NCBI RefSeq assembly: GCF_900474295.1
Contig: NZ_UCOB01000021.1
Coordinates: 1 to 61,983 of the forward strand
Reading direction: 5' to 3'
DNA: 61,983 bases
Origin: Synechococcus sp. UW140
GTDB lineage: Bacteria; Cyanobacteriota; Cyanobacteriia; PCC-6307; Cyanobiaceae
Positions 4,652-47,361 of this stretch are shown piece after piece. Both the position numbers and the translations under genes were made by a program. The notes below the pieces were generated by a model. It was not told the origin of the DNA. It saw only the letters and a program-made list of their open reading frames with translations, and did not search any database. Within the stretch, counting starts at the first letter, position 1. Every line of letters begins with the position of its first letter.

Positions 4652-4969
4652 CTAATCCGATCCAAGCGCGCTGGAGCAGGCCCGTTGTAACCAGGCGTAC
4701 AAACCATCACCATCAAGTCGTGGTGACACTCGTGGCAGGGGCATGGAGGCCAACGCCAGCACAGGCACTTCGAGGTCATAGCGGGCCTTCAGAGCGGGAT
4801 CGGTGCCCGGTGCATCGATATCGATCACTTCAAGCACGAGAGGCGGAGCGATAGCGCTGAGATCCAACCTTCTCAGGCGTTGTTCGAGGCCCTCGCACAA
4901 ACAGCAACCCTGGCGGCTGTAGAGAAGCAGCGGCTGCTGGGCTTTAGTCAGGAACGGGGTCACAGCCAC
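4652..4969 (-). CDS. Glutaredoxin-like protein (DUF836 type)
   Basis: 105 residues. A beta strand (LLLYSR) leads directly into GCCLCEGL, a CxxC-type redox motif at the start of the first helix, and a cis-Pro-like VPVLAL segment lies near the middle, as in small thioredoxin-fold proteins. The fold implies thiol-disulfide exchange, but no substrate can be assigned. The start overlaps the 3' end of yidD by 26 bp, so the two are probably translated from one message. Confidence 0.8.
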
Positions 4970-5189
4970 AAGGGGTGAAGGGATGGCAACGCAACAACCG
5001 ACGCAGGGTTAGCCAGCCACCGCGCCAGGGGCCATGGCGCTCAATCGCCTCTATCCCATAGGCGCTGCAGGAGGGAATGAAGCGGCAGCGAGGGCCGATC
5101 AAAGGTGAGATGAAGCGCCTGTAAAAGCCGATCAAAGCAAGCAGCACAGCTGCGAATGCCCGGGTGATCGTGGTCTTTAACAGTGCCAT
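4944..5189 (-). CDS. yidD: Membrane protein insertion efficiency factor YidD
   Basis: 81 residues with the diagnostic pattern [16 protein letters not shown], then [15 protein letters not shown], and a C-terminal [14 protein letters not shown]. YidD is a small amphipathic protein at the inner face of the membrane that aids YidC-dependent insertion. It overlaps the following glutaredoxin-like gene and is divergent from the ion channel gene across about 60 bp. Confidence 0.95.
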
Positions 5190-5249
5190 CGCAATCCTGT
5201 CCCGTGCCTGACTGTTGCCTCTAGCTTAGGAATCGAGTGTGAAGCTGCC

Positions 5250-6407
5250 GTGACCCGACGACGTCGCATCAGGCTGCTCCTGATTGGCGTTGCGTGCGCA
5301 TTGACCTTGCTGTTCAGCCTCCCTCAGGTAGGGGCTCAAGAAAGCATTCCCGGACAAGCCAACAGGGTTGGGGATCTCTGGAAACTGAACACAACACGGC
5401 AGCCATGTCCCGCAGCAGAGACACTGCCAAGCCATCCGTTTATCCCACCTCAACGATCGGATCAACCCGGACCGATCCCAGTGGGCTTGAACATCCACAT
5501 CAACGAAATACCCTCGATTTCCGACACCCACAACCAATTTCAAGTGGATGGCCTACTCACCTCAACGTGGTGCGACAGCCGAATAATTGATGAACTCCCG
5601 AAGGGAGAGAAGGAACTGGTGCTCTACAACAGCGCCGCAGAGAACTGGATTGGAGAACACTGGTCTCCACAACTGGAATTCACAAACCGCATAAGAGAGG
5701 CTTTTTACCAGACCCAAACCATCACGCTTCGACGCAATGGTTCAGTCGAAAGAACAGCTCGCTTTGAGGAAGGACTGGGGTCAGAATTCAAACTCGAGAA
5801 ATTTCCGTTCGATCAGCAACTGTTGCGGCTGTATGTGCAGTCGTTCACTTGGGACCAAAGCATCGTTCGCCTGATCGACCTGGGCGACGTTGTAAGCCTG
5901 AGCCGTACATCAAAACTTCCAGAATGGCAAATCAAAGGCCTAAAGTATTCCATTCGCAATCATGACGACCCGGAAAAAGGGAGCAAGGAATTTTCTCGCC
6001 TCTCCTCCAGGATCACCATCGCACGCCGATCGGGATATTACATCTACAAGATTTTCCTACCCCTTGGAATCCTCACCTTCACCAGCATTTTCTTTCTAGC
6101 CATTCCGATCGAGGCATTCGCCGATCGAATGGCCTTTATTTCCGGCCTGCTGTTCACAACGCTGGCTTATCAGATTATTATTGCAAGCTCAGTTCCGAGG
6201 GTCCCGTACCTCACCCTGGGAGATACATATACGATCTTCCTATTCATCTTCATGATATCGGAAGTCTTCATTGCCTATCATATTTCGCAAAATGTTCTCA
6301 AAAACGGAGCCGAACGAGTGCCCGCAATTGAACGTGTCATGGAGATCTTTTTGCCAACAATCTTCATCGCTTCACAGGTTCTATTTTCTTGGCTAGCAAT
6401 GAGTTGA
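5250..6407 (+). CDS. Pentameric ligand-gated ion channel (GLIC/ELIC type)
   Basis: 385 residues from a GTG. A signal peptide (about 1-30, ending near VGAQ) precedes an extracellular beta-sandwich with the conserved FPFDQQ (185-190), followed by four membrane helices: M1 about 262-286, M2 292-313, M3 326-346, M4 364-384. The stretch after M2 reads VPRVPYLT, close to the LPKTPYMT of GLIC. An acidic residue (Glu288) lies just before M2, where cation-selective channels carry Glu. As in other prokaryotic members there is no disulfide-forming Cys-loop. It would form a homopentameric channel in the cytoplasmic membrane with a periplasmic ligand or proton site. It ends 2 bp from the convergent DUF3365 gene. 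Confidence 0.9.
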   Translation: MTRRRRIRLLLIGVACALTLLFSLPQVGAQESIPGQANRVGDLWKLNTTRQPCPAAETLPSHPFIPPQRSDQPGPIPVGLNIHINEIPSISDTHNQFQVDGLLTSTWCDSRIIDELPKGEKELVLYNSAAENWIGEHWSPQLEFTNRIREAFYQTQTITLRRNGSVERTARFEEGLGSEFKLEKFPFDQQLLRLYVQSFTWDQSIVRLIDLGDVVSLSRTSKLPEWQIKGLKYSIRNHDDPEKGSKEFSRLSSRITIARRSGYYIYKIFLPLGILTFTSIFFLAIPIEAFADRMAFISGLLFTTLAYQIIIASSVPRVPYLTLGDTYTIFLFIFMISEVFIAYHISQNVLKNGAERVPAIERVMEIFLPTIFIASQVLFSWLAMS

Positions 6408-39345: not shown

Positions 39346-40101
39346 CTATGGCAAGACGACACTGCTGCTTTGACGGACCAGCAGCAATGAGAAATAGGGC
39401 CGCGACCCAGCTTGCACGGCGGCCGCAGGCACCACCTGCTGATCACCCCAACCGATCCGCTCAGCGAACAGAGTCTGATCGAGTAGCCCCCGAGCCCGAA
39501 GCAGCGGCTGGATCCACTGCCAACGCACCCCCAACTTGATCAGAGCGAGAACGGTGCCACTCTCCTCAGCCTGATCAAGCAATGCCTCCATGGCTGCAGG
39601 TGTTTCAGGGCAAGGACGGATCAACAAGCCCTCCTGTTGCAAGGCCAGTGGCCAGGCGCCGGCGGCGGCGGCGGCGGATACCGAGGAAATCCCAGGGATC
39701 AGTTGCAAGCTCACGTCAGGATGATGGCGCTGAAGCGCCAGCAGCACGTAACTGCCAGTGGCGAACAACGAGATATCCCCCTCACAAAGAAACACCACCC
39801 GATGCCCCTGGCTCACTTCCTTGGCAAGGGTGGAAGCGGCCGCTCGCCAGGCCTCTTGCAGCGCGTCAGGCTCTGTGACCATGGGGAAGACCAGGGGTAG
39901 ATGTCGCTGATTCGGCTGCAGATACGAAGCCACAATCGAAGCGGCCATCCCCACGGCCTCCGGCCGTGCCACTGGATAGGCCACCACCTCAGCTGCGCAG
40001 AGACAGCGATGGGCCCGAAGCGTGAGCAGATCAGGAGCACCGGGACCGACTCCGATCAGGACCAGCGGAGACGTTGAGGGAACAACGGGGGATGCAGTAA
40101 T
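39346..40101 (-). CDS. cobI: Precorrin-2 C20-methyltransferase
   Basis: About 251 residues. It adds the C20 methyl in cobalamin ring synthesis from S-adenosylmethionine. The N-terminal SAM-binding VLIGVGPGAPDLLTLRA is open in the same frame as VAYPVARP and lies upstream of the first GTG (39987), so the real start must be further up. VFLCEGDISLFATG, LIPGISSVSAAAA and the C-terminal SLLLV follow the family. No ATG, GTG or TTG is available. AGGGG lies 7 nt before an ATT codon at 40101-40099, which is the best candidate start. A CTG at 40107 is the alternative. Confidence 0.85.
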   Translation of the reverse strand: MTASPVVPSTSPLVLIGVGPGAPDLLTLRAHRCLCAAEVVAYPVARPEAVGMAASIVASYLQPNQRHLPLVFPMVTEPDALQEAWRAAASTLAKEVSQGHRVVFLCEGDISLFATGSYVLLALQRHHPDVSLQLIPGISSVSAAAAAGAWPLALQQEGLLIRPCPETPAAMEALLDQAEESGTVLALIKLGVRWQWIQPLLRARGLLDQTLFAERIGWGDQQVVPAAAVQAGSRPYFSLLLVRQSSSVVLP

Positions 40102-40990: not shown

Positions 40991-41207
40991 CGCCAGACAA
41001 GCAACGACAGGACCAATACTAAAACTGCCCACAGGGCACTGGTCAATCTCTTTGGACTTCTTTTGGACTTTGATTGCGATTGCGTAGCGATTGCAACCCT
41101 GGCGACACCGAACCCCAGCAAGAAGACCAACAGGCAGAGCTCTGGGCAGTACAGAACCACCGCAGGCAGGCGTCAGGCCGGCTGGATTGCGCAGCTCCAA
41201 TCCCCAG

Positions 41208-42356
41208 TCAGCTGGCCGTAGCCGACTGCTCCTCTAGCTGCTCAAGCAGCACGTCCACAGGAATCTTGGTGGAAAAGCGACAGGCACAGGTCTCACTGGC
41301 ATTGAGCGTGCCGTGCTCCCAATACTTATTACTCCCGGTACCACCACCACAGAAACCGTAGTAATCGCATTGGCTCCTGCACTCAGCCATGCCGGCATTC
41401 ATATCGTGCTGCAATTGGCGAAACGCTTGCGTTTGCGTCGCATCCTCAAGCGAAAGATCGCGAAGGTTGCCAAGATTGAACAGGCCATAGCGTTCGGTTT
41501 CAACCGAGAGCAGCTCCGGATCAAAGGTTGAGAAATTGCCCGCCGCATCCACACTAAGAATCGAATAAGGGCGATTCATCTCGTTTTGGCGAAGGCGTTG
41601 ACCAAAGCTGATCATCTCCAACACCTGATCAAACTCCCGCAGCTTGATAGGGAAGCCATCCCGTTGATTACGGCGCCAGAAACGCCGCAAAAACTCTCGG
41701 TACTGCTTCTCACGCCTCAACCCCTGCATGGAGGAGTGGACATGAACACCTTCCTGCTCCTCAACATTAAATCCGACGTGATGAATGCCTTCATCCCGCA
41801 GAAATTCATACATCTCATCAGGCTGATCTAGTGCTTCATGGGTAAGCACTGCAATAGCGTGAAAGGGAATACCATGATCTTGAAGGGTGCGAATTCCACG
41901 CATCGTGTGCCGATGGGATCCGTTGCCGTTACGGAAGCGTCGATGGGAGTCATGAATGCACTCAGGACCATCAATACTGACGCCAACCTCAATCTTATTT
42001 CTCTTAATACACGCTGCCCATTGATCATTGATCAGGGTGGCATTCGTCTGAATGTGCTGATCAATCACCACGCCCTGCTGCTGCAGCTCGGCAGTCGCTT
42101 TTTCAAGGCATTTCGTGGCCTCATCGTAATAGCTACAGGGCAAGGTGAGAGGCTCACCGGCATGCCAGAGAATCGAAAGATGAGGACCCCAGAAGGGACT
42201 CTCGTAAATCCTCTGCAACAACAGCGGCAGCTGACTGAGATCAAACTGGTGACGCTTCTGACGGTCGGGCAGGTAGCAATAGCTGCAATCAAGATTGCAG
42301 AGAGATGTGGCCTGGATCACCACCAGGCCAATAGGACCGTAGTCAGCGCTGTTCAC
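41208..42356 (-). CDS. grrM: Cyclophane-forming radical SAM/SPASM maturase GrrM
   Basis: 382 residues from a GTG. The N-terminal radical SAM cluster CNLDCSYC (Cys20, Cys24, Cys27) binds the 4Fe-4S centre that cleaves S-adenosylmethionine. LWHAGEPL, QTNATLIN and GVSIDGP follow in the barrel. The C-terminal SPASM domain has Cys-rich CRSQCDYYGFCGGG and SETCACRF for auxiliary clusters. This is the GrrM/OscB type that cross-links aromatic side chains to a nearby residue in a ribosomally made peptide. The start overlaps the grrA stop (GTGA), so enzyme and substrate are translationally coupled. The next gene upstream is the precursor. Confidence 0.9.
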   Translation of the reverse strand: MNSADYGPIGLVVIQATSLCNLDCSYCYLPDRQKRHQFDLSQLPLLLQRIYESPFWGPHLSILWHAGEPLTLPCSYYDEATKCLEKATAELQQQGVVIDQHIQTNATLINDQWAACIKRNKIEVGVSIDGPECIHDSHRRFRNGNGSHRHTMRGIRTLQDHGIPFHAIAVLTHEALDQPDEMYEFLRDEGIHHVGFNVEEQEGVHVHSSMQGLRREKQYREFLRRFWRRNQRDGFPIKLREFDQVLEMISFGQRLRQNEMNRPYSILSVDAAGNFSTFDPELLSVETERYGLFNLGNLRDLSLEDATQTQAFRQLQHDMNAGMAECRSQCDYYGFCGGGTGSNKYWEHGTLNASETCACRFSTKIPVDVLLEQLEEQSATAS

Positions 42357-42661
42357 CAGTTTGCGAATCCTCCCCGGTAAGCATTACCAAAGCCTCCTCC
42401 GCCACCATTGGCAAATCCGCGACCACGGCCATTGCCCCAGGCACGTCCACGACCATTCCCCCAGGCCCGCGCCACCAAGGGTGGCGTTTGGGGGGGCTGA
42501 TGATCCAGGTCGCTCCAGACCTGATGATCAATCTTTTGAATCCGTTGTTCCAAGGCATTGCTTGCATCAGGCTGACTGTGCACAGCAGCACGACTGGACT
42601 CACAGAGCACAGAGCTGGCAGCCAGTGCAGCAGCAAGGCTGAGAAGTGTGGTCTTGTTCAT
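42353..42661 (-). CDS. grrA: Gly-rich RiPP precursor GrrA (triceptide type)
   Basis: 102 residues. A Sec-type signal (MNKTTLLSLAAALAASS, followed by Ser/Arg/Ala) is followed by a helical leader (ALEQRIQKIDHQVWSDLD) and a Gly-rich core (66-102). The core holds five aromatic-X-Asn triads: W67-G-N69, W75-G-N77, F83-A-N85, F91-G-N93 and F99-A-N101. In this family the maturase joins the aromatic ring to the third residue to make a three-residue cyclophane. The aromatic residues are exactly eight apart. The ATG at 42661 is chosen over a TTG 12 nt upstream. grrP lies 50 bp upstream on the same strand. Confidence 0.9.
   Translation of the reverse strand: MNKTTLLSLAAALAASSVLCESSRAAVHSQPDASNALEQRIQKIDHQVWSDLDHQPPQTPPLVARAWGNGRGRAWGNGRGRGFANGGGGGFGNAYRGGFANW
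42356..42466 (-). repeat. grrA: Octad repeats in the grrA core
   Basis: Imperfect 24-bp repeats encoding AWGNGRGR twice, then GFANGGGG, GFGNAYRG and GFANW. Each begins with Ala or Gly, then an aromatic residue, a small residue and Asn. The first two units are identical in protein and near-identical in DNA, which suggests recent duplication. Confidence 0.85.
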
Positions 42662-42710
42662 GGTGAAGGTCAAAGAAACACGACGTAACTGGAGAAGAGC
42701 GCGCGTGGCG

Positions 42711-43631
42711 CTACTTGTTGCTGAACTGTGCAGTGGTCGACAGAACCATCCGGAAGAAAGTGCTGATCTTCTGATCGCTCAGGTCAATGGCGCTGTCGCT
42801 TCCGATCCAGCGATTGATTTCCGAACGCACCGCAGGATCGTTGTCGATGTAGGCAGAGAGCAGACGACCGATCGCCAGATTGCTGACGTTGAGTAAATGG
42901 GGCGTGGAATCACCCACGACACAGCCCACGCCTGAGCGGCTGTAGGCCCGGTCAGGAACCAACGCATCATCGGGAGCGGTCGCCTGTCGATTGGCCTTCA
43001 ACCAGAGACTGTCACCACCAAGGAAGGACACATCACCATTCTTGAGGCCTGCTAGAGCCTGCTCAGGAGTATCGAAGAACTGAAACTGAGCGTCGTCAAG
43101 CGACCGTGCCAACACATCGGCAGCAACCGTGTTCTGGACAACACCAATGGTCTTGCCCTGGAGACTGCCTGGAGTGCCATCGTTGCCCTCGGGGGCTAAC
43201 ACCCGCACACCACCATTGGCGAAGGGGATGGTGAAATCAAGCGTGCGCTGACGCTCCCAACTGAATGCCACACCACAGGCGATATCTGCAGCACCGGAGC
43301 GAATTTTGTCGAGCCCTTCTCGGGCTGATGTCACCGCAACCGGTTCGATCGCGAAGCTGTCGGCCTTGGCATGGGGCGCCGTTTTCATCTGATCACGGAT
43401 CGCCTCCAGCACAACAAAAGACAGGCCGTCATAGTTGTCGCCATTCTTCTGAACCATCGGCAAGGCATCACCGATCACCACGGCCCGCAAGCTTCCGGTT
43501 TCAAACGCGTTAGCTGTGGCCTGTGCTGCCTTAGACCCGCCATCCGACTCGGCGGCGGGCTTCTGACAGGCCACCACTGCCATGGCCGAGAGAGCGAGCA
43601 ATCCGCATGTGGCCGTCTTCCGCAAACCCAT
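42711..43631 (-). CDS. grrP: Orphan periplasmic binding protein GrrP
   Basis: 306 residues. The N-terminus LLALSAMAVVACQK is a lipoprotein signal with Cys22 as the likely lipid anchor. A type 3 solute-binding fold follows: GLSFVVLEAIRDQM, IRSGAADIACGVAFSWERQRTLDFTIPF, GKTIGVVQNTVAADVLA, and GLKNGDVSFLGGDSLWL. No ABC permease or ATPase is adjacent, as expected for GrrP, which occurs with grrA and grrM. It may bind or display the modified peptide or sense a ligand, but this is unproven. It probably heads the grrP-grrA-grrM operon. Confidence 0.88.
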   Translation of the reverse strand: MGLRKTATCGLLALSAMAVVACQKPAAESDGGSKAAQATANAFETGSLRAVVIGDALPMVQKNGDNYDGLSFVVLEAIRDQMKTAPHAKADSFAIEPVAVTSAREGLDKIRSGAADIACGVAFSWERQRTLDFTIPFANGGVRVLAPEGNDGTPGSLQGKTIGVVQNTVAADVLARSLDDAQFQFFDTPEQALAGLKNGDVSFLGGDSLWLKANRQATAPDDALVPDRAYSRSGVGCVVGDSTPHLLNVSNLAIGRLLSAYIDNDPAVRSEINRWIGSDSAIDLSDQKISTFFRMVLSTTAQFSNK

Positions 43632-44352
43632 TGTGCTGACCTTCGAATGAGATCCAACAGACCTCAGATCTAGACAGAGAAGCCAGAAGCGACCACAGAT
43701 CAGATCTGAACCAGCACGATCGGGATCAGAACGGCAACTCAGCTGCCGTCAGTTCATACAGATGAAACGAAGCCCACTCTGAGCCCAGGCATCCGTGCGC
43801 CTTCGCAATGCACCCACCAACCTCTCCAGCCATGACATCAAGAATGGTGCGGTATGGAACCTGCAGTCGCGAGACGATCGGAAAAGTCGCCAAAGGCACG
43901 GACGTGCGCAGCAGTTTGCACCAGGGTTATGACTGACCCAATCTCCTCTGGTGTCCATGTCATTCCACGACTCAAACACGGCTCAGCAGAAGAAATCCGA
44001 GGCCGGAAAAACAGGGGCTGCCAAGCAGAACACACTCCTGGCTCGACCGATTTACCCAGGGACACGCGGAACGTCTCACCCTTCCGCCTAATCCAGTGCA
44101 CTCAGCGGCGAACCAAGTGCTCACCAAGCATGGGCACTTGGTTCGCCCGACCACGGCAGTTCGCCAAACTGCTCCTGCTCACAAGCCAGTCCTTCTGGAT
44201 CTCGTGCTTCACGCGGCTGAACGAGCAACCCTTCACATCAGAGGGACCGGCCAACGCAATAAGGCGCCTTTCCAGATGCAACAGAACGAGGCCTTCACAG
44301 TGCACCAAGCCGAGCTGCCTCAACAGTGCATCAGGGCCGCAACAACCCTGAT
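43632..44352. other. 721-bp gene-poor region upstream of grrP
   Basis: No convincing gene on either strand. The open frames are short, overlap each other and lack family features. It should hold the grrP promoter. It contains a perfect 14-bp inverted repeat (44107-44147). A small RNA is possible but no known cyanobacterial RNA family was recognised. Confidence 0.4.
44107..44147. repeat. Perfect 14-bp inverted repeat
   Basis: Arms GGCGAACCAAGTGC and GCACTTGGTTCGCC are exact reverse complements, separated by 13 nt. There is no T-run on either side, so it is not a standard terminator. It could be an RNA hairpin or a binding site. Confidence 0.8.
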
Positions 44353-46246: not shown

Positions 46247-46909
46247 TTAGGGGCTAACCACCCCAACGGAATGCATGCGAACATCCACCGGATTCTCCAA
46301 CTCTCCAGTCAGGATCTGGGCTTCATGCGCGGCCAACTGCTCCAAACGAGGTATCACGACGGACCGATCCCAACGCTCTTCGCACAGCATCCAGTAGAGA
46401 CCGAAGTGGCGGGCCTCGCTAGCCAGTAACGCTCCATAGAGCTGCCGTAACTCCTGATCAGGACTGTGCTCTGCAAGCAATGCCATGCGCTCATGGCTGC
46501 GCGCCTCGATCAGACCGGCGACGAGAAAGGAATCCAGCATGCGGTCCGGCTCGGGCCGGCGCACCTGTTTCGCCAGCTTCGCGCCGTAACCCGGTGAAGG
46601 CAGAGGCTCGAGGTAACGCCCTCGTCCCTTAAGCACCGCTAGCACCTGCTCAAAATGCTGGAGCTCCTCGCGAGCAAGTGGGCTCAGGGCTTCCCCAAGG
46701 CCAGGCTCACACAGGTATCGAAACATCAGCTGCACGGCCGCACCCGCAGCCTTTCGCTCGCAATGGGCATGATCGATGAGCACTTCGATCGGCCTGGCAT
46801 TGGCTTGATCCAGCCATGAAGCACTGGTGGGAGCGGCGAGCCAGCGGATACTTGCGACAGTTTTTTGAAGGCTCTGATCACCAGCCTGAGCAGGAGACAA
46901 GAGCACCAT
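46247..46909 (-). CDS. miaE: tRNA-(ms2io6A)-hydroxylase-like protein MiaE
   Basis: About 220 residues, a ferritin-like diiron fold. The first iron pair is given by EVLIDHAHCERKAA (Glu, His), then REELQHFEQVL, then a second set EARSHERMALL and SEARHFGLYW. MiaE hydroxylates the isopentenyl group of the modified adenosine next to the anticodon. The ATG at 46909 overlaps the aroQ stop (TGATG), so the two are co-translated. Confidence 0.92.
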   Translation of the reverse strand: MVLLSPAQAGDQSLQKTVASIRWLAAPTSASWLDQANARPIEVLIDHAHCERKAAGAAVQLMFRYLCEPGLGEALSPLAREELQHFEQVLAVLKGRGRYLEPLPSPGYGAKLAKQVRRPEPDRMLDSFLVAGLIEARSHERMALLAEHSPDQELRQLYGALLASEARHFGLYWMLCEERWDRSVVIPRLEQLAAHEAQILTGELENPVDVRMHSVGVVSP

Positions 46910-47361
46910 CAAACCGCCTCTTTCACACGAGCCCGCAGATGGCCAACCAGTCCATCGAGAGCCAGGCGATAGCTGTCGGCGCCGAAGCCACAGATCACAC
47001 CCACAGCCTGATCGGCCAGATACGACTGATGGCGAAAGGGCTCCCGTGCATGGATGTTGCTCAGATGCAGTTCCAGATAGGGAATCGCCACTCCCAACAA
47101 GGCATCCCTTAGAGCGATCGAGGTGTGGGTGTAAGCGCCGGCATTGATCATGATCCCATCCACCTGGCCCATCGCCTCGTGGATGCGATCCACCAGAGCT
47201 CCCTCAAAATTGCTCTGGAAGCAGTCCAGCTCCACGCCGAGATCACTGGCTTGGAGCGCCAGCGCAGCTTCAATCGCTGGAAGAGTCGCAGATCCATACA
47301 ACCCTGGTTCGCGCTTCCCCAGCAGGTTGAGATTGGGGCCATTAAGCAAGAGCAGGCGCAT
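46909..47361 (-). CDS. aroQ: 3-dehydroquinate dehydratase, type II
   Basis: 150 residues from the ATG at 47361, which begins [23 protein letters not shown] (with the catalytic Tyr at the end of the loop). [36 protein letters not shown], and [17 protein letters not shown] are type II motifs. It makes 3-dehydroshikimate in aromatic amino acid synthesis. It overlaps miaE by TGATG. Confidence 0.96.

Follow-up and report, generated by a model that had tools for sequence, protein, structure and literature searches.

The DNA analyzed here, a contiguous stretch of 61,983 nucleotides from Synechococcus sp. UW140 (the window), carries three genes on the minus strand in the order grrP, grrA, and grrM. 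grrP (42711..43631, 306 amino acids) encodes an SBP_bac_3-type binding protein with a lipobox-like VVAC that ends at Cys22; grrA (42353..42661, 102 amino acids, ATG start) encodes a precursor peptide; and grrM (41208..42356, 382 amino acids, GTG start) encodes a radical SAM/SPASM-type cyclophane maturase. The grrP-grrA intergenic gap is 49 bp, and the grrA stop and grrM start overlap in a GTGA at 42356-42353, with GGGGAGGA situated within grrA, upstream of the grrM GTG. All three proteins exceeded the NCBIfam cut-offs of their families: GrrP scored 357 bits to TIGR04262 (cut-off, 190), GrrA 89.9 bits to TIGR04260 (GrrA/OscA1; cut-off, 31), and GrrM 583.7 bits to TIGR04261 (GrrM/OscB; cut-off, 310), with model positions 1-363 of 363 covered. 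A previous sequence-only reading had described one minus-strand three-gene unit in which grrA and grrM share a GTGA stop/start, and had named matches to these three models as its check. Its coordinates, strand, and gene order were all correct, and its assignment of the 382-residue protein to the GrrM family and of GrrA to Gly-rich precursors was borne out by the scores above and by the Gly-rich GrrA C terminus. Judged by these matches, the cassette belongs to the known Grr/OscA-OscB triceptide kind, already named in NCBIfam.

The closest named record is Synechococcus sp. UW105 (98% identity in GrrM), and the UW140 genome holds a single GrrM match. Relative to a UW105-like genome (G159), dN/dS was 0.058 (grrP), 0.047 (grrA), and 0.078 (grrM); against G155 and G172, dS exceeded 1.3, which makes the ratio unusable there. 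An RNA-family scan of the window returned two tRNAs and nothing else, a sigma-70 promoter scan of the region returned no sigma-70-like site, and terminator-like sites numbered 7 in the scan versus 3.2 in shuffles. Elsewhere in the window, a cobI-like ORF (39346-39987) matches its family models from about position 30 and below their cut-offs; its start may have been missed, or the gene may be shortened.

The GrrA peptide and the GrrM enzyme

GrrA begins with a predicted Sec-type signal region (about residues 1-25; 42587..42661, minus strand), read by eye rather than from a computed cleavage site. Residues 36-44 form the leader motif ALEQRIQKI (42530..42556, minus strand), identified by conservation over 69 sequences, in which the pattern E-x-R-[LI] is kept at Glu38 in 59/69, at Arg40 in 66/69, and at Leu/Ile41 in 66/69; this motif is likely the element that GrrM recognizes. 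The core (residues 67-102; 42356..42463, minus strand) contains WGN at 67 and 75, FAN at 83, FGN at 91, and FAN at 99 and ends in Trp. These five [WF]-x-N motifs compare with a mean of 0.75 in shuffled sequences (at least 5 in 2 of 200,000 shuffles), and they are spaced exactly 8 residues apart. One longer interval occurs in the core of G155, and the cores of relatives contain FRNGG arrays. No sorting signal was recognized in GrrA.

Across 69 cores (the window included, the frameshifted GrrA of L142 left out), which hold 5 to 16 motifs each, Asn stood at +2 of Trp or Phe in 606 of 622 cases (Trp, 177/182; Phe, 429/440) and at +2 of Tyr in 1/105, counts that carry a small bias because the first [WFY]-x-N was set as the start of each core. 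The review PMC11002830 states that OscB links residue i to residue i+2, with Trp C7 bonded to the beta-carbon of Asn or Asp, and Phe C4 to that of Asn. Since the Asn-at-+2 pattern agrees with this reported chemistry, W/F-x-N cross-linking is expected here, and GrrA is predicted to be cross-linked in this organism.

GrrM carries the radical SAM motif CNLDCSYC (CX3CX2C), with Cys20/24/27 kept in 57/59 sequences, the SPASM-type Cys326/330/336/359 in 59/59, and Cys116 in 58/59. The Pfam radical SAM model matched at 62.2 bits and the SPASM model at 17 bits, under its cut-off of 21.5; with that proviso on the Pfam score, the motif and the kept C-terminal cysteines agree with the earlier identification of GrrM as a radical SAM/SPASM enzyme.

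Several variant or precursor-like genes were also observed. P-A-A-M cassettes occur at L141 (6564-6935) and L142 (6335-6598); G029 has an intact second GrrA, and in G071 the second GrrA is shortened, probably by a frameshift. A Planctomycetia MAG (L179, 5334-5942) encodes a GrrA-like precursor with a Tat-like RRRFLKG replacing the plain Sec signal. Small ORFs near other GrrM-family genes (L371, 5556-5918; L370, 5982-6188) have W-rich ends and no Gly-rich core and are possible precursors of another kind.

The miaE site and the upstream region

The cassette site was viewed in 19 of the 31 genus genomes. GrrM adjoins rimP-nusA in 15 of the 19 (the G165 copy there is broken) and lies at a miaE-ARD site in four, namely the window, G159, G155, and G172. 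At the old site in UW140, Deg, c30, c12, rimP, and nusA lie together and the cassette is absent; short BLAST searches found no cassette remnant there. The host gene of the insertion, miaE (46247..46912, minus strand), is not a RiPP part. At the four occupied sites (the window, L297, L298, and L306), it is cut at its 3′ end after RMHSVG, and its displaced tail CAAAGTCCAAAAGAAG lies beyond grrM, where it marks the far insertion junction (41057..41072, minus strand, in the window; empty sites for comparison, L299, L302, and L303). The G155 tail differs by one base. In G167, G153, and G166, the miaE site is empty and ends RMHSVGIRKQSPKEA. The G155 insertion adds little beyond the three genes, and the window has an extra 2.6 kb between miaE and grrP. 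That all three genes entered miaE together suggests that they form a self-contained unit.

The upstream regions of 11 genus members, once aligned, revealed a conserved element, CTGATCCCGATCGTGCTGGTTC (43708..43729, minus strand; approximately TGATCC-GATCG-GC-GGTT), about 100 bp ahead of grrP. TGTCTA at 43671..43676 (minus strand), from the upstream alignment, may be the grrP −10 element. Because the conserved element, a possible operator, is common to the old and new sites, the cassette likely brought its own control region along when it relocated.

Cluster 12, a secreted protein of about 160 residues, was considered as a fourth gene of the system and rejected, being present in 80 of 151 genomes, some of them without grr genes. 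Its gene lies 3′ of grrM at the old site and near the M-less pairs L127 and L144, and in the UW140 genome it stays at the old site, where the cassette is absent. The secreted family of about 160 residues with the pattern NWNTDF...FSYRISVQGC, which occurs in 80 of 151 genomes, has members at L098 (7486-8007) and at G000:C3:146840-147319, the L098 member being without a Pfam match. In L167 (G131, 4968-5414), grrA is missing, and a deletion joins the beginning of grrP and the final part of grrM into a single open frame.

Linkage and phylogeny of GrrP

In a family sample of 151 genomes, matches above cut-off were found for GrrM in 55, GrrP in 55, and GrrA in 54; the corresponding numbers in a phylum sample of 292 genomes were 39, 47, and 37. 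Within the genus, GrrM exceeded the cut-off in 29 of 31 genomes; the G165 copy has stops, and no GrrM was found in G034. In the family sample, GrrP lay within 0.7 kb of GrrA for 68 of 70 copies, and GrrM within 0.9 kb for 59 of the 70; the distances are rough, and the 70 count in the window, one sub-cut-off match, and one copy with a frameshift. Outside the family, GrrP was found within 1.5 kb of GrrA in 20 of 21 GrrA genomes and GrrM in 10 of 21. That count covers 29 GrrA places, with the weak matches G266:C3, G272:C188, G393:C35, and G393:C16 omitted, neighboring pieces merged in G428 and G393, and weaker GrrP matches elsewhere in the genomes not entered; G268 was scored for both GrrP and GrrM via two contigs, G306 lies at a contig edge, and shortened GrrP and GrrM pieces adjoin GrrA in G434.

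GrrP is linked more closely to the peptide gene than to that of the enzyme. In G189 (one contig, 3.67 Mb), the P-A gap is 77 bp and GrrM lies 2.26 Mb off; in G270, the P-A pair is present, and no GrrM match was found at E 1e-60. In G153, a genus member, P lies directly beside A, with GrrM about 4.3 kb away, an arrangement that G166 resembles (its grrP runs off the stretch). The pairs at L104, L127, L138, and L144 have no GrrM in their stretches, and their genomes carry one elsewhere; GrrM is cut by the contig end beside the second pair of L120, and L166 lies at a contig end. Three cassettes (L120, L131, and L147) have the order P-A-P-A-M. Counting against the pairing are G373, in which grrP, grrA, and grrM each lie on their own contig, and L108 and L110, where GrrA has neither GrrP nor GrrM nearby. 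GrrP and GrrA may also be neighbors because they are two exported proteins expressed together, rather than because they bind. As a separate observation, the region between P-A and M in G153 (L307, 1114-5832) spans about 4 kb and contains a large ORF on the minus strand, and L308 (G166) is alike.

The GrrP model itself also catches other proteins, as indicated by about ten phylum-sample genomes with TIGR04262 above cut-off and no GrrA match; most of these matches cover model positions 1-240 only, and the proteins may be paralogs. Eight GrrP-like proteins with no GrrA nearby (L097, L113, L119, L125, L128, L136, L140, and L145) form a separate clade; four of them exceed the TIGR04262 cut-off by a small margin, the L125 protein scores 72 bits to SBP_bac_3, and the model may be catching paralogs such as these. 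Conversely, GrrM occurs without a GrrA match in G217, G285, G354, and G432 of the phylum sample, three of which have no GrrP among the matches listed, the fourth (G354) having a 1-240 match elsewhere. Ten GrrM loci outside the picocyanobacteria (score, >300; seven non-cyanobacterial and three cyanobacterial) showed no GrrP match in their flanks, some of which are short, and a GrrA match in L179 only; GrrM-family enzymes would thus also work without GrrP.

On a GrrP tree of 74 rows labeled by GrrA core type, 6 changes were counted over four groups versus a shuffled mean of 32.5, a test inflated by near-copies and subject to a long-branch warning (L095 with the outgroup). L167 is absent from the GrrP trees and L156 from the 74-row tree. 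Nine genomes (G037, G048, G072, G076, G108, G113, G121, G132, and G148) carry both array-type and YYGG-type peptides. Their array-type GrrPs all fall inside one 37-row clade (support, 100/100), and their nine YYGG-type GrrPs all fall outside it. The YYGG-type GrrP rows form a grade, not a clade, and the 37-row clade excludes the array-labeled L121 and L142 and includes the "other" row L153. A single GrrM above cut-off is present in six of the nine two-type genomes; the five placeable ones sit in the array-type GrrM clade. The G113 GrrM (cut by a contig end) is absent from the GrrM tree. G132 has additional broken GrrM pieces on another contig. From the single GrrM in these six genomes and its placement in the array-type clade, one GrrM probably serves both array-type and YYGG-type peptides.

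GrrP fold and the proposed role of the cassette

GrrP matches Pfam SBP_bac_3 at 31 bits (cut-off, 26.4) and has a periplasmic binding protein fold of the DEBP type. In an alignment of 66 of 75 references (A1; the shortened L134 and 8 P-only relatives were left out), Arg127 is present in 56/66 and Asp207 in 58/66, and both align with positions in DEBP; with these residues mostly kept, GrrP may bind an amino acid. Compared with the Asp-Glu-binding protein DEBP/GltI (PDB 2vha, 2ia4), the GrrP ligand loop is one residue shorter and its Ser/Thr pair is gone. The Ser/Thr and Arg of the loop are the DEBP/GltI-type contacts to the alpha-amino-acid. No transporter genes (ABC permease or ATPase) were found among the flanking window ORFs scanned.

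The sequence-only reading had called GrrP lipoprotein-type. This holds for UW140 but is not general: a strict lipobox was found in 6/66 GrrPs of A1, namely the window, three genus members, the M-less pair L104, and L154, whose lipobox looks spurious. An AxA-like site, by a loose pattern, was found in 62/66. A lipobox is also present in the GrrPs of G159, G155, G172, and G153; in that of the genus member G141 none was found, the position reading LVTSQ. By this distribution, the lipoprotein form is mostly a trait of UW140's lineage.

Taken together, these findings make it reasonably probable that GrrM cross-links GrrA, that the product is exported by Sec, and that the predicted periplasmic GrrP likely binds it. 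GrrM would act on the W/F-x-N motifs in the cytoplasm. By analogy with OscB, Trp C7 or Phe C4 would be bonded to the beta-carbon of Asn at +2, giving up to five rings in GrrA with 2 Da lost per ring. To judge from its N terminus, GrrA would then leave by the Sec route, its signal being cut off after modification. The amino-acid-binding-protein cleft of GrrP, with its altered ligand loop, would hold the exported peptide or its leader, and the lipid anchor in UW140's lineage would keep GrrP on a membrane. Linkage, phylogeny, and fold point to GrrP most likely being the periplasmic binding partner of cross-linked GrrA. More tentatively, with the balance somewhat against it, GrrA and GrrP may be a peptide-receptor pair, GrrP having been recruited from an amino-acid importer family and one maturase serving several pairs genome-wide. 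If this were true, the cassette would belong to a cyanobacterial periplasmic signaling or display system, and GrrP would not be an orphan importer part beside an antibiotic-like cluster.

Other explanations of GrrP were weighed against the binding-partner reading. GrrP could be an ordinary amino-acid uptake protein whose permease is coded elsewhere, its adjacency to grrA being historical. Such a protein would account for the SBP_bac_3 match, the DEBP fold, and the retention of Arg127 and Asp207, but it does not fit the persistence of GrrP beside GrrA across cyanobacteria, the lack of an ABC permease or ATPase among the flanking window ORFs scanned, or the altered ligand loop, and we regard it as rather improbable. 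Self-protection, in which GrrA hits competitors and GrrP keeps an inhibitory product in check in the producer's periplasm, seems unlikely, if less so than simple uptake. The presence of one GrrP beside nearly every GrrA and the way GrrP follows GrrA core type are in its favor, as are the matches, in the NCBIfam scan, to the related maturases for darobactin and dynobactin (far under their own cut-offs), whereas the inhibitory activity of GrrA is putative and 2 of the 70 GrrA copies, as well as G373, are without a nearby GrrP. This explanation is in any case a special case of the main one.

We likewise give little credence to GrrA as an envelope peptide for structure or display, with rings that stiffen its Gly-rich chain and GrrP as anchor or chaperone. 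The regular motif spacing (in the window and in the FRNGG arrays of relatives), the number of motifs per core, and the lipobox in UW140's lineage are consistent with that role; the lack of a recognized sorting signal and the many GrrPs without a strict lipobox are not. That the cassette is a functionless, decaying remnant is scarcely credible: although broken copies exist in relatives (G165, G131, and the second copy in G072), all three frames are open in UW140, dN/dS against G159 is below 0.1 for each gene, and the cassette is intact after relocation.

What may matter here is the linkage of GrrP to the peptide gene rather than the enzyme gene; the cassette kind itself is already known. No paper on GrrP was found in the literature searched. 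On the binding-partner reading, GrrP shifts from an "orphan binding protein" to a directly testable candidate binder of cross-linked GrrA. Given how many genomes of the genus carry GrrM above cut-off, the predicted exported cyclophane peptide would be a common trait of marine Synechococcus, undescribed in the literature searched.

Among known systems, the cassette is compared most directly with the OscA/OscB triceptide pathway. The UW140 enzyme and precursor both exceed the NCBIfam cut-offs for that pathway, and the W/F-x-N motifs of GrrA match those reported for OscB in the review PMC11002830; UW140 differs in organism, in core sequence, and in the presence of GrrP, and its product is a predicted one. 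GrrM scored significantly against the models of the AmcB, YhhB, DynA, FxsB, DarE, and XyeB maturases, which places it in the same radical SAM/SPASM superfamily, but it fell under each model's own cut-off, including that of the best of these other cyclophane maturases (AmcB, NF041718; 291 bits against 425). Within the GrrP family of orphan binding-like proteins, UW140 shares the order P-A-M with many relatives and differs from most aligned ones in having a lipobox.
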